Assembly (NCBI GenBank): GCA_019054805.1
Contig: JAHQIY010000004.1
Location: forward strand, 992,001 to 1,056,000
Length of the DNA: 64,000 bases
Source: Brachionus manjavacas
Lineage: Eukaryota; Rotifera; Eurotatoria; Ploima; Brachionidae
Direction of reading: 5' to 3'
Within the stretch, counting starts at the first letter, position 1; each line of letters opens with the position of its first letter. The position numbers and the translations under genes were made by a program. Shown one piece after another: positions 18,601-64,000 of the stretch. The notes beneath the pieces were generated by a model. It was not told the DNA's origin and did no database searches. It saw nothing but the letters and a program-made list of their open reading frames with translations.

Positions 18601-21600
18601 TAAAGTTGAAAATGACCGTTAAGTTTTCATTTAATTCGATAGCGACATGTCAATATTCATTTTTTTTACATTTACAATTTTCCACAATTCAACTTTTATT
18701 TAAATTTTTTTTATTAGATCAATCTTGTACAAAAATTCGGTTACAAAATTGATCTAATAAAAACTCAGAAACAAATAAACAAGAATATTCAACAACATCA
18801 CTAGCAAAAGCATTACAATGGAAGTCAGTATGATATCAAAGTTATTCTACATGCTAGTATAGTTAGCATTGTTTCATTATGGGTTTGATAAAAATTTTAG
18901 GTTTTCAATCCAATTATTTTACTAAAAGATCATAAAAAGTTCGCCTAGGGAATGAATGCCTTCTGTTAAAATTCAGTTTTTCAAGACATTTATTTACATT
19001 ATTTTGATTATTGTTCAACTCTGTTGTGTTATTTTTCCTGATTAGAAAGAAACTATTTTCAATATTTTAAATAAATATTAATGTAAATATTTTTTATTTT
19101 TTTTAAGCGTGTACATTTTGAAATCGAGTAATTAAAAAACTGTCTTTTCTATAATTTATAATTTGACTTCTTTTTCTTAATAATAATGATAATATTTTTT
19201 AGTTATTTATTCACTTGAATAAAGAAGTATAGAAGAGATCAATGAAAATGCTGCACTTGAAATGTTGATAAAAATATAAAAAATTAAAGATTACAAAAAA
19301 TGGAATTGTCGAATAAAATTTTGTTTTTTTTTAAATAAATAAAAAATAGCCATATATTATTTGAATAATAAATAAAAAATTTTTTTACATTTAACATCAA
19401 ATTATTTTGTCATTAGATTCTTTTTATTTCTTTAAAATTAACATCATTAACAATTGATATAAATAAGTGTCAATTAAAAAAGAAATATTTGTCAATTAAA
19501 ACAAGATAATTCTTCAGTAATACTAGAGTCAATTTGAAAAAATAAACGTCATTTAAATAAATGTTTTGTCAATTTAAAAATTTTTTTGTCAATGTAATAT
19601 GAAAGAGTTTTGTGAAATTCAGTACAAATTGTAAAAAAGTTGATCAACTTTTTTCTAAAGATTTAAACTTAGTTCTGTAAATGCAACATAGTGCAACATT
19701 CAAAGTTGCATCAAATATCTAAGTCTGATAAATTTGCAGAGTTAAGCAGAAATTAAATTTCAATTTAATTAAGCGAAGTGCATTTTGCAGAGATTTTGCA
19801 CACCTTTAGAAGACCTTTACAGTTGATGCAACTTTGAATGTTGCACTATGTTGCTTTCACAGAATTAATTTTAAATCTTTAGAAAAAAAGTTATTTAATT
19901 TTTTTACACTTTGTTCTGTTCTTTTGTACTGAACTTCACAAAACCATATGAAAGAAAATATAAAAAAAGTTTTTAAATATGGAAAGGTTTTGACTTCTTA
20001 TTTTTGCAACGCTATTGACATATTACGTGGTCGGCCAATGCTGGCAACTTGACCAAGTTAACTTTCTCGATATGCAATTCCTATGATGTGCTTGCACATT
20101 TAATGTTTAAACCACGATGGACCGTCAAACCAATTATTATTATTTATTTGTTTTATCTGTGCCGAGCTAAAGCTCCTTCAGATTAAAAAAAAATAAAATA
20201 AAAATAAAAATGAAAAGAAAAAGTATAAGAAAAATTAAAATAAGTTAAAATATAATAAAAAGACAATTAAAAATTGATAAATTGTAAGAGGTGACATGTG
20301 CAAAGTATTCAAGTATTGAACAGTTCAGCAAAGAAAGAAGAAATAGTAAGATAGCAATTACACAATAGAGTTGGGTATTCAACGTACCTTGGTTCAAAAC
20401 CCGCTTTATATTCATCAACCAGCTTGGCAATCAATGGAACAGAATGACGCAGTCCTCCCGCTACATATCTTTCGCTCAATTCAAAAAGTCGATTCGAGAC
20501 AGTTAAGAATTTAAGTTTATTAAAGGCCTCATGATGCAAAATATTGGAAGGAGCGTCATATTTTAGTTTAAGTATAAAACGAACTGCTGAGTTTTGTAAG
20601 GCTTGAATTTTTTTAATGTTTGTCTCCGAAAATGAGTTTAGACCCGGAAAAGAGTAATCAATTATAGATCCGATTAAAGATTTATAAGGGTCTCCTAGTG
20701 TGTAATAATTAAGACCCCACTTTTTGTTTGACAATATTTTTATTAAGTTCAACCTTGAACTACAACGCTGTTTTATTTCATCAACCATTGGGGTAAAGGT
20801 TAATTTTGAATCAAATTTTATGCCTAAAAACTTTATTTCCTTTTGACTCTCAATTATATTTTCATAAATTTTTAATTTAAGTCCATATTTTCCTTATTAT
20901 ATTTAGTGAAGACAATGAAGCAAGACTTTTCAACAGATATTTTCATCTTCCACTTGAAGAGCCATTTTTCTAGTTCGTCTAAGTATTTGTTTATCTTATT
21001 TTCTAGATTTCCTTTTTTCTTAAACCAACCATTTACCGAATAATGCATCTTTATTCCTTTAATCTTTATTTCCTATTAATAAATTTTATTTACAATAACT
21101 TAATTTAATTGACAAAAATTAACTTTAATTCACAATTATTTATTTTATGTTACAAATATTTAATACAATTGACAAAAAACAAATTGACATTTCTCTAAAT
21201 TAATTGACAGTTTCTCTCCCTGCCTAAAATCATTTAAAAATAGTGTTACTTAAAAGTGATGTTTGATAAATTTTTTTCATAACATATTTTAACTTGATAA
21301 ACATTTTTTTTTTACTTTAAATTTTTTTTCTTGATTTTAATTTTTTTAATCTTAAGAAGCTTTATCTCTGCACAGATAAATTAAAAAAAAATTAAATAAA
21401 TAAATAAACTGTTGATTAAAAAAAAGGCCAAGCCTTGCCAAACTGTGAGCAAAAAAAATTTCAACTAACCTGTTTGTCATCTCTGATATTGTATCCGAGC
21501 GAAATCAGACAAGATCTGAACTCTTTGGGCTCAAGACGCCTAGTCCTGCTCTTGTCAAAGTGATTGAACGACATCCTGAACTCGTTCATTTGCTCCTCGG

Positions 21601-24600
21601 TAATTCCCTTCGAGTCACGTGTCAATATTTGATTTTCCACCTCGTTTATGTTGCGAGCAATGCTCACGCCGAGCTGCTCCCACCCGACCCGTATGGTCTC
21701 CATGGTGTAGCCAGTGTGTCTGTTCTCGAAGATCATGGCCTCCTGAATTTCCTTGTTGATGTTTTCCAGCTCGTCAATGTTCGGCTTGTACTGAGCCAAT
21801 CCTTGATCCATAGTCCTGAGCCTTTGCAGCTGCTGCTCCAGCCCGCCCTGCATGTTCACGGCCACGCTGGCTATTTGATCGTGCTGACGCTCGATCCAAG
21901 GGCCGGCCACGTTCGCCTTCAGGGCGAACAAGATCCTCAAGCTGTCGTTTTGTTTCTGCTTGTTCATCTCGCCTTGGAGCGTTTGGTCGCGCAGCGGCAC
22001 CAACTGCTGCACTTCCATCCACTTGGACTGCAGCTCGCTGGGCTCAATGCTTGTGTACGGGTTCTCGGCAATCTGCAGGCCGTGCTGCTGGCACAAATGG
22101 AGCGCCTCGTGGGCCAGCGCATCTATCGAGCTGAACTCTTTGTCGGCTTCGGCCAGAGTGGCCTTGAACTGCTCATGGGCGCCAATCAGGCCCTGAATCT
22201 CGTCCACGCTGTGCACAATGAACATGTCCACGAGGTCCTCGCGGGCCCCGTCCAGCCAGTTGTTGTAGGGCGCGGCGCGCTTCGCATACTCCAAGAAAAG
22301 ACTGTCCACGTGCTCGAGTATGCGCTCGGCCTCCTCGAGCGCCACTCGCCGCTTGCTGGTCAGCGTGCCCAGCAGGTCCCAGTTGCGGCATATGCTCTCG
22401 CATCTGGCGTTCACGGAGGCCGCGTCGTGGTAGTCGAGCGCGTTCAGCTCTTGGGCTATGGCCGCTATTTGCTCGACGCGGTCCTGGTGCGCGGCCAAGT
22501 CCGACTCGAACGCTTCGTGCTTTTTTATCAAGGCTTTGAGGTCGTTGAGCTTGCAGCGCTTGAAGTCGTGGGCCTGCAGCAGGTCTTCTTTGCCGTTGGC
22601 CCACGACTCGTGTATGTCGCACTTGTGTTTGAACTTTTTGGCCAAGTGGTCGAGCCGCTCCAGGCGCATCAGCTCGGACAGCAGCCACTCTTCGAAGCCC
22701 CTCTCGGCGAACTCGAGGCCTTTCCACGCGTTCGATATGTCCGAGACTAGTTTGCCCTCGGAGGGCAGATAGGCCGGCCGGTTGCTCAGGCGAAGCTTGG
22801 TCTGCAGCGTGTTGAAGTCGGTCTCTAGCTTGGCTTTTTGCTCGAGACGTGGCGGCTTGTGCACGCGGCGGTAGTCGCGAAACTCCGAGAGCTTTTTTTG
22901 GGTGCCCGGCAGTGTGTTGTCAGTGGTGCGGTTCTCCAGCCACGGGGTTGTGCGTCTAATCCATTCCAAAAGCTTTAAGAAAATTTTTTTTAATGGTGTT
23001 AAATGCCAGAAAAGGTTGGCGGGTCCAATTTTTTGGCGCCGTTAAAAAATCATTTTTTTGCCCACCCCCTCTCAAAGATTAGCACCAAATTTTAAGCTGT
23101 ACCCTTTTAGGACTAAAAATTTAATGATTTTGTGAACATTTTTAATTATTGTTGTACAGATTCTTGGAGCTCTTTTTCTAAGCTACAAAATGGTGTGTTC
23201 ATTTGTTTTAAAAAAAAAAATTTTGACTATCAAAGCTGGCTTTTGCTAAAACACGGTCAGATAAGGAATTTTGCAATAGATGCTTACCACTGACCATTCT
23301 GTAGAGAATTTGATGTTGGACATTAGGTGCTGATGTAAATCAAATTGACGATTTTATTTTCATTAAATTTAAAAAGAAATTAAATTCAAACATTAACTTA
23401 TATAATTCTAATTTCAATTTAGATGATTGTTTAATTAAAAAAAGGGTTTATAAAAAAATTTTATAAAAAAATTTTGGGTCTTGCGTAAAATGTGATCCGG
23501 TGATCACATAACTTGTGATCCAAAATTCGACAACAATTTAAAAAAAAAATTTTTTGGGGTCTTTACCAATATGTGATCACTTGATCACCAAAAATGTGAT
23601 CATTTTAATAATGCTGGTTTTGTGAACAAGACTGATCACCAAATCGATGATCACACAATATGTGATCAAATGATTGATCACGAGAATTTAAACTACGATC
23701 ACTAAAAAAAATTTACTGATCACGCTTGAATCTCAAACTTATAATATATATTGATCATCAAAATAAAAAATTTTCTCATCAACTTTTCTTGATAAAAAGA
23801 TGTCACATTAAAATTGCAATATAAATTATATGTGCTTCAGTTTTGAAATCTTTTTTATATAATCATTCTTACGCTTACTAAGCTTTAAATTGTAATATAT
23901 AAAATGAATGAATGTCTTGAATCAAATAATAATTCGTATAATTTTGGCTGTTATTCGATCTTGGGCTGCCGAGTTGACTGTTTCAAAGACAGTTGATTCA
24001 ATTCTTCTCCACTTTGATCACAATTTAAACAGAGAAACTCCATATTGCTAAAAAACACAGTCAAATTTCATGTTAATTTTTTTTCTATATAAAACTTTAT
24101 TAATGTGACATCTTTTTATCAAGAAAATTTAATGGGAAAACTTTATATTTTAATGATCTATATATATTATAAATATTGCCACTTTATTCTTACGTCTTTG
24201 ATCACATAAATAAAAACATTGATCACAAAAGTTTTTTCCTTAATTTTACTTTTTATATTTTAGATCACATATTGTGTGATCATCGATTTGGTGATCAGTC
24301 TTGTTCACAAAACCAGCATTATTAAAATGATCACATTTTTGGTGATCAAGTGATCACATATTGGACAAGACCCATTTTTTGATCTCCAAAAAAATGTCTG
24401 TGATCACATCAGTATAATTGAAAAATCAAAAAAAATGAACATTTTGCTTAAATTTTTTAAAAGTCTTGGAAAAATTTTTACTTATGTTTCTTTGAAATAT
24501 GTAACTTTACACGCTTTTCATTCATATTTTCAGCATTTGATTATTGCCAAAATTATCTCCAGCGGTTTTTTAAAAAAAGAAAAAAATGAGTCCTTAAATA

Positions 24601-27600
24601 CAGATTTAAATGAACCACAACTACTACATCTCCATGTTTTTAATTTTAAAAATTTTTTAATTTTTTCAAAATACAAATGAAATATTTTTTAATAAAATAG
24701 CATAAAGTTCTAAAAAGTTTTTCTTTTTTTTCATTTGATGATCATCAATTAGCTCTTCAACTTTAAGAAGCTTTATTAGAAAATCAAAAATTCATGTGAT
24801 CGTGAAAATTTTTTTGGGATCAAGAAAAAAGTTTTTGTGAACATTGAAATTATTTATGTGATCAACGATTTGGTGATCAGCAATGATCACAAAGTTCGCA
24901 TGATACCACTGACCACATTTTACGCATGACCCAAAATATTAATTTTTAATAAAGGTTTGATCATTTTCTTTTTTTTTAATTTTGAATTTTAAAATTTAAA
25001 TTCAATCATTTTCTGGGTCTAAATCAAAAATCAATTAAAAAATTTGAATGAAAAAATGACCACTAGTCATATGAATTGCAGAAAAAACTAGTGGTGACCT
25101 AGCTCTTTTCTTTAGAAGCTCATGGCTAAAAAAAACTAAAGAAAAAAATTAAAAATATCTTTTTTTGGTATGTACATTTAATTTTTGCTCAAAATAAAAA
25201 AAATAAAATTGCGGTCTTGTTTAATTATCTAAACGAATTTTTAATTCCTAACTGAATTACTTTTTACGTAGATTTTCTTACACTAATCATTCAATTTGAT
25301 GTTTTTGGTAATTTTTTCCCAAAAAATTACGTATACTTACGCAAAAAATGTAGTAATTTATGTAATTTCATTAATTTATTTATTTAATTAATTGTTAGAA
25401 AATTTTTAATGATATATCTTTATTTGTTTTTTTTGCGGGGAAGCTCAATCAGTTTTTAAGCTATTTTTAGTGTTTGACCAAGCTAAATTAAAATCAATGT
25501 TATGTGGAACAAATTTCTTCAAATGATTTTAAATGGGTAAATTAAACCTTATAACAAATAAAATACGAATTATGAAAGCATAAATAGAGGTTTAATTTCC
25601 TAATTCAAAATCTCCAGATTTAAATCCAATTGAGATGGTATGGAATGAGTTAAAAGCTTTTGCAAGAAAAAAAGCAATCAATAATGAGGAAGATGCTAAC
25701 AAATCAATATTTGAATTTAACAGACTACTTTAGTCATCTTAAATTTAAAAAAAAAACGAAAATTTTTGGTCTTTTGAAAATTTTACGTAAAATTTGTAGC
25801 CCTGAATAATCACTTATTCATCAGCTTGTCAACTGATGCACAAAGATAATTATACTTGTTAAGTATTTCAGAAGTAGGAGGCTTCGAAATGCTGACATAG
25901 ACATTAAGCACTTAGCTCACATCTTGACTTAATTACAAGCTCGTGTTCTTGACACGAGCACATATATAAATAGATATAAATAAGAATTCCATTCTTAGAA
26001 CTTCAGAACGTTCAATAACTTAAATAAAGCTTTTGAAGATCAAACATTGTTTTATTATAAACCGGTTACGTAAGCTTGCGTAATTTTCCGTAAAAATTAC
26101 CAAAAACATCAATACTAATTTGAAATCAATACTGTTTATTTAAAAAAATTCCTTTGTATATTTAAGAAATTTTCACTTTGTGACTCTTTATAATTTATCG
26201 TTTATTTTTAATCAAATTTTTTTTTTTAAATAAAAAATTTATCTAATAGAGAAAACTCTTTATTCTTATTGTCGTAGCAAAAAAATTTAACAAAAAAAAA
26301 TGAGAAAAAATTTAAACTTACGTCTGATGCGAGACGCTCATACTCCTCCATTAATCTCTCGTTTTCCTGGTTAACTTTGAGCACCTTGCATATTCGATTG
26401 GCAGCAGTCTCGGCCTTAAATAAAAGGTTAAGTGGCTGGAAATGGTCGTGGGTAGATGGCAAATCACATGCAGACCTTTTGAGCACCGGCAAATGCGTGA
26501 TAATACGAGGACACATAAGTCATTACGGACTTTTCATCCGGCTTAGCACTATGGGTTATTTCTAGCAAAATCAGACAAAGTTTAAGACACAGCACAACAA
26601 ATAGAAAAAATAAAAAAGACAAAATTTAGGGCAACATGCATGGACACGCGCAGCAGACGGCATACCTTGTGAGCGCCGGCGAACGCGTGGTAATACGCCG
26701 AGACGTAGGTCATTACGGACCTATCGTCCGGACGGATACAATTAACCATGTCTGCACAGTTTTTAACATTTAATTTCAACTAAGTGGTCAATTAAAGCTA
26801 GATTACCTTCGGCGTCCAGCATTTTGGGTATGTCCAAATGTTTCTCGGCAATGTCAAAGGCCAGATTCAAGTTTTTGAGCGGCTCGTCTTTGTTCAGCTT
26901 GTCGTAATCGATCAAATCTGGACGGTGACGATGAATTAGAGCGCAAAAGGCAAGGCCGTCTTTGAAGCTCATGTGAAAGTTTTGTACATTGACATTTTTG
27001 TATGGCTGCGTTTTGCGCTGACACCACAATAGAAGACCTTCTTTCGCGGACATTTCTTTTTTTTTTTAATTTTCAATAATTTTTATCATTAAATAATTAA
27101 GAAAAAAAAATTTTTTTTTCTTAATTTTTAATCAATACAAAAAAATTAATTTCTTTGAAAATTAAAAATCAATTTTTATGTTTTATCAATAAATATTTTA
27201 TGTAATTTTTTAATTTTTTAAATAATGGGAAAAAAAAATTTTGTTGATATATTTTTTTTACTTTTTTACTAAGAGAAAAAAACTGTTTACCTTCTACTGA
27301 AATGTCCTGAATGGCAAATCTAAGAATAATGGTCCAGATCATGCCGAGAGTCATTTTTAAATTTCCATCGACTATTTCCTCGGCGCCAATCGATACCAGC
27401 TTGACGCCCTTGCTCTGAATGTAGTCAAGGGCCTTGTTGACATTGGCTATTTTGTGGAAGCGCATTTTGCCGCGGTCAGGCTTGGGCAGCTGTTCGCCCG
27501 ATATCACCTCAAGCAAGAGCATTAGCTTGAGACCGTTGCGAAAGTCCTCATTTATTTCTTCGATTTGAGTGCCGGCCTTGCGCAGATGCGAGTTGCACCA

Positions 27601-27810
27601 CGCAGTGAACGTCTTGCGCTGCTGCTTCTCCCACAGCGGGTCCAGAACGCCCTCGCGCTCCCACTCCTCTTCCTGCTGCATGTACTCGTCCGAGTACGCG
27701 TTGACCGGCTTGCCCGAATAGGCCTGGTCGTACGGCGACTGCTGGTACGCCTGCATGTACACACTGTTTGCCGGGTTGGCATAGTAACCGTTCATTTCCG
27801 GGTTCATCAT
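15306..27810 (-). CDS. ACTN: alpha-actinin, complete gene with twin alternative exons
   Basis: Actin cross-linking protein of Z-disc-like structures, stress fibres and adhesion sites. Coding exons (minus): 27810-27291, 27055-26807, then 26751-26666 or 26561-26476, then 26414-26322, 22972-21470, 15675-15517, 15464-15306 (stop TGA). All junctions are GT-AG and keep frame. The product is about 922 residues, normal for the family. Order: Tyr/Gln-rich N-terminus (1-55), CH1 (about 63-168, [14 protein letters not shown]), CH2 (about 178-285), neck ([12 protein letters not shown]), four spectrin repeats (from [15 protein letters not shown]), EF-hands ([35 protein letters not shown]) and the C-terminus [17 protein letters not shown], the hallmark actinin ending that binds titin-like or PDZ partners. 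The start is the second-codon Met-rich [10 protein letters not shown]; either Met may be used. Two large introns carry transposons. Identity is certain; the exact isoform set is inferred. Confidence 0.97.
16310..17690 (+). mobile_element. LINE family A fragment, reverse transcriptase C-terminal half
   Basis: Starts with [23 protein letters not shown] (FADD box changed to LADD), is interrupted at 16390-16784 by a MITE, and resumes with the thumb region ([50 protein letters not shown]). It ends at 17660-17690 with CTGAAGAAGCTCTACC, the family 3' terminus. Stops at about 16875 and 17226 and a frameshift near 17355 kill it. Closely related to the copies at 37.3-38.6 and 39.4-40.4 kb. Confidence 0.85.
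16390..16784. mobile_element. Tc1/mariner-type MITE (395 bp) nested in a LINE
   Basis: Terminal inverted repeat CAGTGGTGATTTGA ... TCAAATCACCACTG with TA on both sides (16388-16389, 16785-16786). The paralogous LINE at 39.73 kb has the uninterrupted sequence GTTACATTCTTCATT with a single TA, which directly proves the insertion point and the TA duplication. The inner half (about 16535-16770) is a long near-perfect palindrome. No coding capacity. Confidence 0.9.
19606..19945. mobile_element. palindromic MITE (340 bp) with 9-bp target duplication
   Basis: Ends AGTTTTGTGAAATTCAGTAC and, inverted, GGTTTTGTGAAGTTCAGTAC. Both arms are about 115 bp and include GCAACATAGTGCAACATTCA. The flanking direct repeat ATATGAAAG occurs at 19597-19605 and 19946-19954. 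A 9-bp duplication with long arms fits MULE-derived MITEs. Non-coding. Confidence 0.75.
20130..21055 (-). mobile_element. LINE family A' copy, reverse transcriptase C-terminal part with 3' end
   Basis: On the minus strand: [19 protein letters not shown], a frameshift near 20890, then [33 protein letters not shown] (from 20788), [39 protein letters not shown] and [13 protein letters not shown]. The 3' UTR ends with CTGAAGGAGCTTTAGCTCGG and an (AAATAAT)-like tail near 20130-20175. Nearly identical to the plus-strand copy at 51.6-52.4 kb, including the same frameshift. 5'-truncated, inactive. Confidence 0.85.
21300..21412 (+). mobile_element. LINE 3' terminal fragment
   Basis: T-rich DNA followed by CTTAAGAAGCTTTATCTCTGCACAGATAAA and an AAATAAATAAATAAA tail, a diverged form of the LINE 3' end CTGAAGGAGCTTTAGCTCGGCACAGATAA seen inverted at 20.16 kb. 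Confidence 0.45.
21470..22972 (-). CDS. ACTN: alpha-actinin rod exon: four spectrin repeats plus first EF-hand
   Basis: A single 1503-nt exon (501 codons, phase 0 at both ends) from LLEWIRR to NIRDDKQ. It carries the four spectrin repeats that form the antiparallel dimer rod (conserved W and L heptad positions, for example [20 protein letters not shown] and [20 protein letters not shown]), then EF-hand 1. The EF1 loop [12 protein letters not shown] lacks the usual Gly at position 6, so calcium binding is doubtful. The exon is strongly GC-rich against its surroundings. Confidence 0.96.
23472..24936. mobile_element. TGATCAC-rich foldback element in an actinin intron
   Basis: Outer inverted ends TTTTGGGTC(T/A)TGCGTAAAATGTG (23472-23494 and about 24914-24936). 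Inner arms of about 110 bp are near-perfect inverse copies (23556-23668 and 24263-24373), including GGTGATCAxGTGATCACATA and CATCGATTTGGTGATCAGTC, and a further inverted segment with AATGTGACATCTTTTTATCAAGAAAA (about 23790-23815 and 24103-24130). The self-complementary heptamer TGATCAC/GTGATCA occurs many times. The loop 23840-24090 is less AT-rich but has no recognised gene. Foldback-type, non-autonomous. Confidence 0.75.
25285..26130 (+). mobile_element. degenerate Tc1/mariner element
   Basis: 25611-25734 reads [20 protein letters not shown] to a stop, the strongly conserved C-terminal catalytic block of Tc1/mariner transposases (third acidic residue in NPIE). Inverted ends share TTGATGTTTTTGGTAATTTTT and xTTACGTAxxCTTACG (about 25297-25345 and about 26068-26115). 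The rest of the transposase is lost. Sits in the actinin intron between the neck and rod exons. Confidence 0.7.
26322..26414 (-). CDS. ACTN: alpha-actinin neck exon
   Basis: 93 nt, phase 0 both ends (acceptor TTTAAG|GCC, donor GAC|GTAAGT). Encodes [20 protein letters not shown] to YERLASD, the linker between the actin-binding domain and the first spectrin repeat. Confidence 0.95.
26476..26561 (-). CDS. ACTN: alpha-actinin alternative exon B (CH2 end)
   Basis: 86 nt, acceptor GCTAG|AAATAACC and donor AAAAG|GTCTGC. Completes the phase-1 codon G|AA and encodes [16 protein letters not shown] then [13 protein letters not shown]. Same length, phase and protein pattern as exon A just upstream, so one replaces the other in the mature mRNA. 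It matches the canonical actinin sequence at KPDE(K/R), like ubiquitous vertebrate isoforms. The donor GTCTGC is a weaker match to consensus than that of exon A. Confidence 0.85.
26666..26751 (-). CDS. ACTN: alpha-actinin alternative exon A (CH2 end)
   Basis: 86 nt, acceptor TGTGCAG|ACATGG and donor CACAAG|GTATGC. Completes the phase-1 codon G|AC and encodes [16 protein letters not shown] then [13 protein letters not shown]. Separated from exon B by a 104-bp intron and from the preceding CH2 exon by a 55-bp intron. GC-richer than exon B. Confidence 0.88.
26807..27055 (-). CDS. ACTN: alpha-actinin CH2 exon
   Basis: 249 nt, enters and leaves in phase 1. Encodes [20 protein letters not shown] through [10 protein letters not shown], the body of the second calponin-homology domain. 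The acceptor AAAAAG|AAATGTCC is preceded by a run of A rather than a pyrimidine tract. The donor is GAAG|GTAATC. Confidence 0.94.
27291..27810 (-). CDS. ACTN: alpha-actinin first coding exon: N-terminus and CH1
   Basis: 520 nt, ends in phase 1 at GAAG|GTAAAC. An N-terminal extension of about 55 residues rich in Tyr, Gln and Asn ([16 protein letters not shown]) precedes CH1, with the actin-binding surface [16 protein letters not shown] and [19 protein letters not shown]1 ends with [15 protein letters not shown]. Confidence 0.95.
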
Positions 27811-28316
27811 TTAGAAATGAAGATGCTCTAGAGTTTATTTATGTTCAGGTGCTCGTAATTTTATTTCTAAAAAAACAAAACAAAAAATGCTAATTTTGAT
27901 GCTTTTTGTTCAATTAATAAGCATAGATGTTTCAAAGTGAGAGAGAGAGAAAGAAAAAAGCATTAAACTAGATGCTTTGATCGAGCATACCCTCAGATCA
28001 AATTACGTTTAGTATTTTTTTTTTCTAGCATAAATAGTTGTACATTTTCATTTTTGATTTGTCTAGATTTTGCCTTGTGTGTAGCCCCAATGTGCCTCAA
28101 ACAGCAAGCGCGTTCTTGTCCTGGTTGTTTGTTAGCTTCTTGCAGATGTTAAACACTAGTCTAGCTTTTTGAATCACTTAATGCACTCGATCAAAATTCT
28201 AGGCTGAGATTAGAAGCCTTAGAATTGTTCGCTGATAACGAGTGCATTTTTTATGCAGTACGGAAGATTATAATAACAAAATTTGATTTCTTTTTATTAC
28301 AATATTTCCTATGATA
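27811..28316 (-). promoter_or_regulatory. alpha-actinin 5' flanking region
   Basis: Region expected to hold the 5' UTR and promoter. There is a GA-rich microsatellite (GAGAGAGAGA, about 27941-27952). 28080-28200 is less AT-rich than its surroundings and could be an untranslated first exon. An inverted pair TGCACTCG/CGAGTGCA lies at about 28182 and 28238. No TATA box can be called with confidence. Confidence 0.3.
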
Positions 28317-29535
28317 CAGTGCTGCTACGATACCTTGAATTCACCATATTTTACGTAAATTATGGTAAATTCACGATATTTTACCATATTTACCGTAAAA
28401 TATGGTAATATAAAAAAGGGTATTTTTCGTAAAATAACGATAATTATCGTAAAATACCGATAATTACTGTAAAATTCAGTGAAAAAAAAAAATTCCAAAA
28501 TTTCTCGAAAAACCGATTTTCATGAAAAAAATTTTTTTTTTGAATTTTTGAAAAAGGAAAACAAAAAAAATTTTTTAGACAAAAATTGACGTAAATTTCG
28601 GTAAATTCTTGTAAAAAAAGGTAAAAAATGTTAAAAATTCAACAGAAAAGGAAAAATTGATTTTTTATTACTTCTTTCAATTTTCTAACAAATTAAAATA
28701 TTTAAACATTATTTACAAAATAAATTTTATTTTCTAGCTTTTTTTGCTTTTAAGCTGTTAGCTGTCTTGTCCCAAGCTTCTTTGAATGTTGATCCTTTTG
28801 GAATAAATTTTACAAGCCCAGCTTTTTAAAAAAATTTATGTCTAACTTTTGATTTCATTTAAAGCATATTATTTTACTTTTGATATTAAGCATTTCAAAA
28901 AACTTTGACAGTTGAAAAATGTAAGAAATCATCTTAATATATAAATCATCTTATAAATGTAAAAAATACTAAAAAATTTTATTATTTTAATTTTTTAATA
29001 AATCATTTCTAGGTTGTTGAGATTGTAAGTGAAAGAAATGGTGACTGGTCAGATCATTGAATTCTGATTGTGTATCTTTTTTTTATAGAGCTCTTTATAA
29101 ATGATTTTTGATAATTTTTGTTTATAAGAAAATAATTTAACATTTTCGTACTTAATATTTTCAAATACTGATTTGGGAAAACAGATAATTGACAAATAAA
29201 TATTAATTTTCATAATTTGTTTAGAAAAAAATTGAAAGAAGTAATAAAAATCCATTTTTCCTTTTCTGTTGAATTTTTAACATTTTTTACCTTTTTTTAC
29301 AAGAATTTACCGAAATTTACGTCAATTTTTGTCTAAAAAATTTTTTTTGTTTTCTTTTTTCAAAAATTCAAAAAAAAAAATTTTTTTCATGAAAATCGGT
29401 TTTTCGAGAAATTTTGGAATTTTTTTTTTTCACTGAATTTCACAATAATTATCGGTATTTTACGAAAAATACCCTTTTTTTGATTACCATAATTTACGTA
29501 AAATATGGTGAATTCAAGGTATCGTAGCAGCACTG
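28317..29535. mobile_element. Tc1/mariner-type non-autonomous element (1.2 kb)
   Basis: Inverted ends CAGTGCTGCTACGATACC... with TTGAATTCACCATATTTTACG, flanked by TA (28315-28316, 29536-29537). Long arms (about 28317-28670 and 29255-29535) fold back on each other. The centre holds a conserved coding tail (28727-28828) and AT-rich DNA. A second, 3'-truncated copy starts at 41297. Confidence 0.85.
28727..28828 (-). pseudogene. coding tail carried in a Tc1-type element (copy 1)
   Basis: Minus-strand frame KAGLVKFIPKGSTFKEAWDK then TANSLKAKKARK and a TAA stop. The same frame, with a few substitutions and the same stop, is kept at 41.75-41.83 kb. I do not recognise the protein. It may be the last exon of a host gene or of the element's former transposase. 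Confidence 0.4.
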
Positions 29536-29537
29536 TA

Positions 29538-30109
29538 ACAGAATTTTTAATTTAATTTAGTTTTGTTACAAACCATGCAAAATAGAGCTGTTGGAACAAT
29601 AAACAAATTTATTCGAGAACATCTCGATTTGATCCCAATTATTAAATAAACGACCCCAAAAATAACGATTGTTATTTATCACATTTTCTGTCATGAAGTA
29701 TGATATAAATTAATGAATTTAACTGCAAAAAATAAAAGATTTCTTAACTGAAAAATTATCAAATTCAGCAAGTCTTCTGGAGAATAATTTCGATGACACT
29801 TTCATTGACGCAGAAACTTTTCCCAAAAAAATAATAGAAATTCAGCAATAACCCGCAACTTGGTCCAAGAGTGAGACTTGTTGTAAAAATTCAAGGAAGT
29901 GATAAAGGGTTTACATTTCGACAGTGTGTCATTGAACTCCCATGGGATTAATCATTTAAAAGATTCAGTCAAGCATGTATACAACTGCAAATATCAAAAA
30001 AATGAGGATTTGGGCTGTAAAGGCCATAACCCTCATACAGCTTAGAGTAGAAAAATATCATTGTTTACCTAGAAGAACTTTATTATTCAAAAAAGCCATT
30101 GAAAAACAA
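29538..30109. other. no gene recognised
   Basis: Broken frames with some protein-like pieces (RAVGTINKFIREHLD; HVYNCKYQKNEDLGCKG near 29960-30020) but no assignable family. The same sequence resumes after 30693, so it is the host of the next inserted element. Confidence 0.4.
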
Positions 30110-39433: not shown

Positions 39434-40376
39434 ATGGCCATCAGTTATAAAATAAAATTTATTCGGTATATGGTTTGGCATGAAGGTCTACTTTTTAAAT
39501 TGATTAAAATGAATCCACCTCATTACTTGACTAACTGGATTAGATCCTTTTTAGATAGTAGGACATTTAAGGTAAATGTGAATGATCATCTGAGCGAAGA
39601 ATATAAAATAACTGCAGGTGTTCCTCAAGGCTCAGCAATTAGTCCTCTTTTATTTAGTATTTATATTAATGACATCCCCAAAAGAAACAAAAAAAATTGA
39701 ATGAATACTCTCTGCTTTTCGCAGATGATCCAGTTACATTCTTCATTTATAACAAGAAAGGGAACCTAGAAAATAAGATTAATAAATACACCAACGAACT
39801 AGAACAATGGCTTTTTAAATGGAAAATGAAGATATCAGTTGAAAAGTCGTGTTCAGTAGTCTTTTCTAGATACAAAAAAGAGGGTGATAATCTAAACTCA
39901 AAAGTTTATGGAAACAGAATAGTGAGCCAAAAAGAAATCAAGTTTCTTGGTATTAAATTTGATTCTAAGTTAAACTTTAATATACTAATAGACGAAATTA
40001 AAGAACGCTGCAACAAAAGGCTAAATATTATTAAGATATTGTCAAACAAAAAATGGGGTCTTACTCAAAACACACTAGGAAATTTATATAAATCTTTAGT
40101 CGGATCGATTTTAGACTATTCTTGAATTCATTTTCAGAAAATAATATCAAAAAACTACAAGCAATTCAGAATTCAGCAGTAAGATCTATCCTTAAGTTAA
40201 AATATGATCCTCCCTCCAACATCGTGCAACATGAAGCTTTTAATAAACTAAAATTACTAACAGTCTCGAATCGGCCTTTTGAGTTGAGTGAGAAATATGT
40301 TGGGACAGGACTGAGTCATTCTATTCCATTCGTTGAAAGACTGGTGAAGGAATACAAATAAGGTTTCGAATCACTT
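39434..40376 (+). mobile_element. LINE family A copy with RT palm and thumb
   Basis: Best preserved copy of this family. VWHEGLLFKLIKM, AGVPQGSAISPLLFSIYIND (about 39614-39675), YSLLFADDPVTFFIYNKKGN (FADD catalytic box, frameshifted at about 39690), [13 protein letters not shown] and [14 protein letters not shown] 10-nt deletion at about 40118 removes FPCL, present in the 17.16-kb copy. LFELSEKYV follows. Ends in a second LINE at 40377 without a 3' UTR. 5'-truncated, inactive. Confidence 0.88.
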
Positions 40377-51354: not shown

Positions 51355-52430
51355 GTTCCCGTTTTTTGATATCTCCAAAGCGTTCGATAGGGTTTGGCAT
51401 GATGGTCTTATTTATAAACTAATAAAAATGAACCTTCCCTCTTCCCTAATACATTGGATTAATTCATTTTTATGTAAATGGTCACATAAGTGATGAATAC
51501 CATATTAATACAGGTGTTCCTCAAGGCTCGGTAATTAGTCCATTACTTTTTAGTTTTTTTATCAATGACATTCCTAAAAGAAATAAAACAAATAGTGAAT
51601 ACTCTCTTCTTTTTGCTGATGACTTGGTTACAATTTATATTTAAAAAAAAAAAGGAAATCTAGAAAATAAGATAAACAAACACTTAGACGAACTAGAAAA
51701 ATGGCTCTTTAAGTGGAAGATGAAAATATCTGTTGAAAAGTCTTGCTTCATTGTCTTCACTAAATATAATAAGGAAAATATGGACTTAAATTAAAAATTT
51801 ATGAAAATAAAATTGAGAGTCAAAAGGAAATAAAGTTTTTAGGCATAAAATTTGATTCAAAATTAACCTTTACCCCAATGGTTGATGAAATAAAACAGCG
51901 TTGTAGTTCAAGGTTGAACTTAATAAAAATATTGTCAAACAAAAAGTGGGGTCTTAATTATTACATACTAGGAGACCCTTATAAATCTTTAATCGGATCT
52001 ATAATTGATTACTCTTTTCCGTGTCTAAACTCATTTTCGGAGACAAACATTAAAAAAATTCAAGTCTTACAAAACTCAGCAGTTCGTTTTATACTTAAAC
52101 TAAAATATGATGCTCCTTCCAATATTTTGCATCATGAGACCTTTAATAAACTTAAATTCTTAACGGTCTCGAATCGACTTTTTGAATTGAGCGAAAGATA
52201 TGTAGCGGGAGGACTGCGTCATTCTGTTCCATTGATTGCCAAGCTGGTTGATGAATATAAAGCGGGTTTTGAATCAAGGTACGTTGAATACCCAACTCTA
52301 TTGTGTAATTGCTATCTTACTATTTCTTCTCTCTTTCCTGAACTGTTCAATACTAAAATACTTTGCACATGTCACCTCTTACAATTTATCAATTTTTAAT
52401 TGTCTTTTTATTATATTTTAACTTAATAAA
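51355..52430 (+). mobile_element. LINE family A' copy
   Basis: FFDISKAFDRVWHDGLIYKL, NTGVPQGSVISPLLFSFFIN, YSLLFADDLVTIYI (stop), [20 protein letters not shown], a frameshift at about 51780, [20 protein letters not shown], then an open frame to 52399 ([36 protein letters not shown]). The 3' end stops at about 52430 without the CTGAAGGAGC tail found in the 20.1-kb copy; MULE-like sequence starts right after. Inactive. Confidence 0.85.
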
Positions 52431-62388: not shown

Positions 62389-64000
62389 TCATTGTTGACC
62401 GTGCTGTTTCTTGGCTGCTCGTTCCGGTTGAACTCGCTCCGGCGGATTCAGTACTCTTTTTGTCACCTCCGCTGCCTTCCGTTCCGCCTCCCGATGCTCC
62501 GACTCGGCCTTCTTCGGGCGTCCTCTACCTACACCCGTTGCCATTGCCGCCTCAACATTGACCGCTGCTGCGTTGGTTGTTGGACTTGCACTGGTCTGGC
62601 CATCATCACCTGGTGCTGCTGCCGCGCTGACTTCAGCCGCCGACTCCGTCTGGTCGCCGCTGCTACCTCTCACCACTTCCTGTACAACCACTTTGTCCTC
62701 CTCGAAACTGCTGAAGTAAACTTTGAAGAACGAGGAGTTCCTCGTGATTGAATGGCCTGGTCTCGAAGCAGTTACCATGCTGCCCTTGACGTTCACGACT
62801 GTATACGGCTCCGGATCCCATTCCGGCCTAGACTTGTGAGTGCGCTTTAGCTTGAGCAGCACTCTGCTTCCTACTCGGATGACACTCATGCGCGTGCGCG
62901 TTCGCTTATTGTACTCGTCCTCCATGCGTCTCCTGGACCGTTCGTGGTTCTCTTTGGCCAATCGATGCCACTCTGCTCGGTCTGGCTCGCCGACTGGTTC
63001 AGGCAAACCCGAAGTCCGACTGAAGCCGAACATCAACAGGTTCGGAGAAATCTTGGTGGCTGCATGCGGCGTTTCCCGATACGCCCTCAAGAAATCTCTT
63101 AGTGCCTGGTCTCGACTGATTCCCGTCGCCTCGGCTCCTCTGATGGTCTTGCCTAGGTTGCGCATGAAGCGCTCCACGTCGCCGTTGGCCCTTGGCCAAA
63201 GTGGTGTAATCTTGCGATGCTCAAATCCCAGCTCCCGTGCGTACTCGGCAAAGGAATGTGATTGGAATGGTGCGCCGTTGTCCGACTTGTAAATGAGCGG
63301 TGCGCCAAAAATTGAAAAGAGCTCGTCCAAAACAGGCTTTACGTGAAACCAGCTCGTTGATGCCACATCGTTGACGAATACTTGCTTCGAGTACTCGCAT
63401 AGATTCACAAACCAGAACTTGCCGTTCGCCAACGGTCCGAAAAAGTCGCCGGCGACACGCTCCCATGGTCCGTTTGGACATGAAGATGCCCTGAGCGGCT
63501 CGAGGGTTTGCTTTGTTGCAACGGTCTGACACAGATGACAGTGTGCGACCTCCCGCTCGACTCGCTTGTCGATTCCTGGAAACCAGACTCTCGCCCTAAT
63601 CAGCGCCTTCGTCTTGACCACTTCTTGATGCCCACGGTGCGCCAACGTCACAATCGCCCCTCTCAGCTTGCTTGGTATGATGATTCGACTCCCTCGTAGC
63701 ATGACACCATCCTGGGCCTCGCTGATCTCGTCAATGACGTGCTCGAACTCAGCCAGCTCCTTTGGTAGCCGCCCTGTCGGCTGAATGATGAACTTAAAAG
63801 CTGCAGCTGCTCGTCAGCCTCTGTTGCCACGGCCACCTCCTTTTTTGTGATTGTTCTTGGCAGAGCACTGACTTGCGCTTGATGGCCTTGTTGAGCAACC
63901 TGTTGTCGCATGTCATTCTGATCTTGACCTTCTTCGGCTGCCCCACCACCGGGTTCTCCTGCTTCTTTTCGATCACCACCAAGTTCGAAATCCATTCAGG
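62389..64000 (-). pseudogene. Ty3/gypsy pol, internally deleted, with intact integrase domain
   Basis: LTR retrotransposon polyprotein, 3' part. From the window edge: start of reverse transcriptase (WISNLVVIEKK, RMTCDNRLLNKAIKR), then an abrupt jump near 63870 to the pre-integrase linker (SALPRTITKKEVAVATEADE), a frameshift near 63805, then one open frame to 62389. Integrase: HHCC finger (LAHRGHQ ... CHLC), catalytic Asp in VAGDFFGP, Asp in KSDNGAPF and Glu in GDVERF with 35 residues between the last two (D-D-35-E), then a GPY/F-like region (DPEPYTVVNVKGSMVTA) and a C-terminal tail with an AT-hook (GVGRGRPKK). RT catalytic core and RNase H are missing. Strongly GC-rich against its surroundings. 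Gag and 5' LTR are outside. Confidence 0.88.

Follow-up and report, generated by a model that had tools for sequence, protein, structure and literature searches.

Two tandem exons at the end of CH2 in the alpha-actinin gene of the rotifer Brachionus manjavacas: a probable one-or-the-other choice

In a stretch of 64,000 nucleotides from Brachionus manjavacas (contig JAHQIY010000004.1, positions 992,001 to 1,056,000; hereafter the window), two neighbouring exons, A and B, code for different versions of the same segment of an alpha-actinin, and the question is whether the gene uses one, the other or both, and what would enforce the choice. A sequence-only reading had held that the two "must be mutually exclusive". 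The explanation favoured here, with high confidence, is that A and B go back to an old tandem duplication of one actinin exon and that one or the other is used to finish the CH2 domain, with a regulated exclusive choice backed by disposal of errors through the reading frame.

Regarding the gene, all its exons lie on the minus strand (-), and its name, alpha-actinin, and the affected domain, CH2, were given correctly in that reading, since the Pfam architecture and the matches to solved structures agree. Exon 1 (coding part 27291..27810, start codon at 27810; an open frame of 520 nt with the donor GTAAAC) provides the N-terminus and CH1, and a profile search of the genome placed its CH domain at G000:C4:1019313-1019624. 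Exon 2 (26807..27055, 249 nt) carries most of CH2 and ends in phase 1; its CH match, G000:C4:1018808-1019050, covers profile positions 2-86 only. There follow an intron of 55 nt with a poor pyrimidine tract (26752..26806), exon A (26666..26751), an intron of 104 nt with a U-rich second half (26562..26665), exon B (26476..26561), an intron of 61 nt (26415..26475) and the next common exon, of 93 nt and in phase 0, which codes for the neck (26322..26414). Further on lie a large exon (21470..22972) that codes for the spectrin repeats as well as for the first EF hand, and the exons for the second EF hand and the C-terminus (15675-15517 and 15464-15309), which end in YGESDL and were found as one copy in the window. 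The assembled isoform A has 922 residues and comprises two CH domains, four spectrin repeats, EF-hand and EFhand_Ca_insen (Pfam); judged by this content, the gene is a complete alpha-actinin. When a CH2/neck query of 165 residues was compared with solved structures, the closest were alpha-actinins, with spectrins further off: ACTN2 was the best, with E 1.5e-93 vs 1.3e-46 for spectrin beta.

As for the number of such genes, the searches covered the assembly of 114 Mb in 61 contigs. The CH domain profile gave 37 matches in the genome, and a query of 170 residues found 7 places: 4 inside the actinin gene, including A (94% identity) and B (64%), two outside it with 42% and 37% identity (L011 and L012), and a weak match on contig C16 (E 3e-4); outside the actinin gene, no place found with this query exceeded 42% identity. 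L011 and L012 were named by reading, as apparent beta- and beta-heavy-type spectrins. Because the remaining matches are two spectrin-like places and one weak one, one actinin gene is counted, by a search that scores its best candidates only.

The same DNA holds several repeats and mobile-looking elements. An element at 28312-29540, which lies ~0.5 kb upstream of where the actinin reading frame starts, has terminal inverted repeats with 57-nt arms that are 98% complementary, with more arms inside, and looks, by reading, like a DNA transposon; another inverted repeat (23557-24373; arms of 114 nt, 97% complementary, GATCAC-rich) sits in the 3.3-kb intron between the neck and spectrin exons. By reading, two nearly identical open stretches, 20309-20893 (-) and 51773-52399 (+), resemble the C-terminal part of a reverse transcriptase of LINE type, and a third, more diverged relative seems to lie at 39673-40125; the long open frame at 62389-63813 (-) reads like the end of a retroelement integrase/polyprotein.

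Elsewhere in the assembly, contig C21 (1.22 Mb) carries an open gene named by reading as a cyoB-like quinol oxidase (L009, G000:C21:119055-123401), which is the only COX1-family match of the genome search and whose identity to the bacterial loci listed, 80 of 216, is at most 58%; C21 is probably a bacterial companion or a contaminant. On C4, Gsx (3398223, +; motifs NSNSRRM and SNEKCKC) and Cdx (7900424, -) lie 4.50 Mb apart on opposite strands, and the published report on the B. manjavacas genes places them on one scaffold, on opposite strands and 4.425 Mb apart (PMC13161344). Read from ATG to stop, Cdx has here three exons (724, 146 and 579 nt) and two introns (282 and 56 nt); the published exons have 724, 146 and 579 bp and the introns 284 and 56 bp (PMC13161344). 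Of the four primer names published there, NSNSRRM and SNEKCKC are the two Gsx motifs, NRRAKERK is present, and KTRTRDKY (PMC13161344) reads KTRTKDKY. With a difference of no more than 2 nt, in intron 1, the gene structure points to B. manjavacas, in another strain, or to a very close sister. The telomere repeats TTAGG and TTAGGC gave no match, in a search that passes over simple repeats and so carries little weight here.

The twin exons have the same length (86 nt) and phase, as coordinates and frames confirm, and the intron sizes first proposed, 55 bp before A and 104 bp between the twins, are exact. The borders follow GT-AG in that both exons are flanked by AG and GT, but the donor of B is GTCTGC, with C at +3, a small correction to what had been described. 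The joins considered ran from exon 2 (27055-26807) through A or B to the neck exon (26414-26322). A alone gave an open actinin frame, and so did B alone, each exon adding 29 residues; joining A to B gave K and then, as codon 2 of exon B, the stop TAA; with both exons skipped, a stop came after 14 codons, and both stops lie far upstream of later junctions. It is then true, as claimed, that the frame is kept by A only or by B only. Exclusivity follows for the full-length protein, because the single-exon joins alone preserve the frame; it does not follow for splicing as such, and to this extent the "must" was too strong. The two exons are adjacent, are alike in length and phase, have their own splice sites and break the frame when included or skipped together, as homologous pairs of this kind do. 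A tblastn search with both exons gave no third copy in the window beyond a chance-like match of 18 residues (E 0.40). A possible second donor, identical to the GTCTGC hexamer of the B donor, lies at 26653-26658 (-), 7 nt past the donor of A; its use would shift the frame.

Regarding their divergence, the A and B proteins are identical at 18/29 residues and differ at 11/29, and the nucleotide sequences differ at 26 of 87 positions (the shared phase-1 G included), with 16 of the 26 changes at third codon positions. Over the whole pair dN is 0.25 and dS 1.36; the last 18 codons have a dN of 0.05 and a dS of 1.50, and the first 11 codons, with dN/dS figures of 0.72/1.13, are far more diverged. The earlier description of the two proteins as homologous holds for the second part of the exon, where 16 of the last 18 residues are identical, but much less for its beginning, where 8 of the first 10 differ. 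Because the divergence is biased to third positions, it shows B, on the evidence of this comparison, to be conserved as a coding exon, and the same figures demonstrate, at the level of sequence, that protein-level constraint acts on the pair. If one of the duplicates, be it B or A, were dead or seldom used, this would agree with the C at +3 of the B donor and with the poor pyrimidine tract at the A acceptor; yet such a copy would not be expected to combine the low dN and high dS of the last 18 codons with a stop-free frame and two intact borders. Among 20,000 random copies of A with 26 changes, just 30 stayed free of stops with 18 or more identical residues, and, as described below, the CH2 score is restored by A and by B alike, which makes a dead or seldom used exon very improbable.

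As for the place of the swap in the protein, the CH2 score was 87.5 bits for the sequence ending ahead of the pair; A raised it to 112.7 and B to 110.0, so that the two exons evidently complete CH2 about equally well by this profile measure. Each aligned without gaps to chain positions 233-261 of the ACTN2 entry 7ank_A, and the two results agree with the initial proposal that the twins change the end of CH2 next to the neck. In the [RK]SVMTYVS of the exons, the spacing K..T(+4)..S(+7) fits, and matches K255, T259 and S262 of ACTN4. An ACTN4 fragment falls in the same register against the chicken and ACTN2 chains. The exon takes in the end of CH2 together with the segment of these three residues, the same part that is exchanged by the 8/8' exons of ACTN4; the position equivalent to 255 is R in A and K in B, the equivalents of T and S are common to both, and 8 of the 10 residues ahead of the 255-equivalent differ between the two. 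The ACTN4 mutant K255E is described as populating the strong-binding state only, and T259I and S262P as further high-affinity mutants (PMC13001351, a preprint); all three also appear as strong-binding ACTN4 mutants in PMC6820738. The swapped segment is the one where ACTN4 mutations that cause kidney disease in humans fix the protein in a state of strong actin binding, and the exon swap may alter the CH1-CH2 contact that sets actin-binding strength, with a shifted closed/open balance of the actin-binding domain as its presumed consequence.

Matches to individual actinin structures separate the twins by a few bits: A scores higher with ACTN2 (7ank, 314.1 vs 312.8 bits, A +1.3), and B with ACTN1 (2eyi, 255.9 vs 260.2, B +4.3), ACTN4 (6o31, 250.9 vs 252.2, B +1.3) and ACTN3 (1tjt, 259.0 vs 260.5, B +1.5). 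To call A muscle-type and B non-muscle-type from such small differences would be a weak guess, and ACTN3, a muscle actinin, goes against it.

As to how the choice would be made, the favoured reading is that the actinin gene takes A or B to end CH2 and to begin the neck, and that tissue-specific splicing regulators would choose between them via the 104-nt intron and the donor of B. RBFOX and muscleblind-type proteins may favour A, while the muscleblind motifs upstream of B, together with the RBFOX site on the B donor, may disfavour B; transcripts with both exons or with none, having early stops, would then be removed by nonsense-mediated decay. This last step could also be the whole explanation: exclusion would not be enforced in splicing, A and B would be joined freely, and decay would hide the A+B and skip products. 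The positions of the two stops, described above, suit this idea, and among human exon pairs whose lengths are not multiples of three, reads that join the two are reported for 83 of 377 clusters (PMC5740500). Decay by itself, however, gives no tissue choice, and many transcripts would be wasted unless regulation were added; as the sole cause it is unlikely.

Regarding candidate sites for such regulators, the motif classes (YGCY, TGCY, CELF-type, PTB-type and UGCAUG) were picked after reading the introns, and the counts are to be taken as post hoc. The window, with its 128,000 strand-bases, has 19 copies of UGCAUG, the RBFOX-type site, and one of them lies in each intron downstream of A and B: at 26635..26640 (-), intron position +26 after exon A, and at 26467..26472 (-), +4 to +9 after exon B, where it overlaps the B splice donor. 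The joint chance of this is ~1.4e-4, uncorrected for a motif chosen after looking. The 104-nt intron contains five YGCY against a background mean of 0.50, and 0.07% of 4,362 overlapping stretches reach 5; mononucleotide shuffles rarely have as many (p 0.017), but first-order Markov copies of the intron often do (p 0.66). CELF-type motifs (TGTT/TGTG) number 4 in this intron against a background of 0.92, with 3.0% of background stretches reaching 4, and exceed neither shuffles nor Markov copies; PTB-type motifs are not raised there, and again exceed neither. Conserved intron flanks left from the duplication were also considered and rejected: local alignment of the A and B flanks was not above shuffles (p 0.12 to 0.39) and, because the flanks are not alignable above chance, inheritance of the shared UGCAUG lacks support.

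The genome contains matches to the corresponding factors, namely an RBFOX-type RRM split over two exon pieces, both of which match the human query at 74%, muscleblind (MBNL)-type zinc fingers in pieces at 73%, 47% and 58%, and CELF-type RRMs at 65% and 69% on C16 and 49% on C7. RBFOX binding downstream is described as usually favouring inclusion, and upstream as favouring skipping, and an influence of RBFOX2 on the splicing of ACTN1 is also stated (PMC11380049); the excerpt of the fly Rbfox1 muscle study (PMC8742874) leaves actinin unmentioned. In flies, muscleblind is reported to act on Actn, where YGCY clusters lie downstream of the exon that is included and upstream of the excluded one (PMC3315501), and this is the layout seen in the rotifer twins. 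The proposed model, in which A would be favoured and the B donor covered, follows from the position rules of RBFOX and muscleblind. In a more specific version, one RBFOX-family protein would switch both ways, the UGCAUG at +26 promoting A and that at +4 to +9 blocking U1 at B, so that exclusion would be built into two motif copies, with the muscleblind sites as backup; this version is speculative and, on balance, unlikely. If it were true, rotifers, flies and vertebrates would steer the same actinin segment with the same few muscle splicing factors, and these would be shared although the exon duplications may be independent.

Another way to keep A and B apart would be steric, with a distant branch point in the 104-nt intron too near the A donor for A to be joined to B; such a design is described for vertebrate tropomyosin, actinin and OGDH (PMC1431707, PMC7969005). 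The intron has no AG before its acceptor, there is a candidate CUAA at 40 nt from the donor with a U-rich tract of ~60 nt after it, and the published threshold is ~50 nt (PMC7969005, PMC5740500). However, AG-free stretches of 102 nt are not rare in the window (664 of 25,560 overlapping ones, and 133 of 1,354, about one in ten, among the pyrimidine-rich), and other branch candidates lie nearer, at 49, 21, 20 and 9 nt from the acceptor. The introns of 55 and 61 nt in the same gene imply that, if both isoforms exist, splicing there has to manage with donor-to-branch distances no greater than ~46 and ~52 nt, and an intron of 56 nt, published for B. manjavacas Cdx (PMC13161344), is found here too. 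Since this gene would splice such short introns if both isoforms are made, a spacing of 40 nt need not be prohibitive, and for all these reasons steric exclusion ranks low and is rather improbable. The locus would then be a small natural case with short introns in which regulator sites, not intron length, should explain the exclusive choice. Competing RNA structures, the docking-site pairing known from Dscam, are scarcely credible as the basis of the choice: the fold of the 392-nt stretch is not better than that of shuffled sequences (z 0.44), 64 of 100 doing equally well. A pairing of U12-type with U2-type donors was rejected as well: compared by eye with the U12 consensus, none of the donors GTAATC, GTATGC and GTCTGC looks U12-like.

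In conclusion, with regulated choice between A and B as the preferred reading, the rotifer pair is, to judge from its gene model, a further case of an exon exchange already published for this part of actinin. It had been suggested that vertebrate ACTN1 and ACTN4 use alternative exons there; this holds for the exons 8/8' of ACTN4 (PMC7052930), but the ACTN1 pair, in the sources as excerpted, is 19a/19b, in the EF hand (PMC1769375, PMC4550062). The 19a/19b pair of ACTN1 and ACTN4 resembles the rotifer one as mutually exclusive actinin exons, and differs in belonging to another domain; the rotifer window has one EF-hand set, which fits the statement, in the excerpted literature, that EF-hand exon pairs are limited to chordates. 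The Actn1 pair is reported to be regulated by PTB (PMC5062968) and, according to the titles of cited studies, by CELF. In an excerpted comparison of human and fly events, 7 of 42 were of common ancestry, and the human actinin events described were those of the EF hand. Rotifer actinin is the subject of no title among the matches listed in the literature on actinin splicing and on rotifers.

The closest vertebrate parallel, ACTN4 8/8', consists of two equally long exons that give two mRNAs differing in the same protein segment (PMC7052930); the products are said to differ at three residues, against 11/29 in the rotifer. In Drosophila, a single actinin gene likewise makes its exon choice within the region of the actin-binding domain (PMC4550062), with alternative exons for non-muscle, larval and adult muscle forms; the RC product, though, is 67 bp longer than RA/RB (402 vs 335 bp; PMC3315501), and therefore the fly arrangement is not a simple pair of equal length. 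Tandem exon substitution is also reported for atn-1 of C. elegans and, for the actinin family, in vertebrates, flies and worms (PMC9741552). Since exon choice in the actin-binding domain has been published for arthropods, nematodes and platyhelminths (PMC9177970, citing Lek 2010), a rotifer switch is unsurprising; it would place the CH2 exon switch in Rotifera, beyond the vertebrates, arthropods, nematodes and platyhelminths named in that literature, as excerpted.
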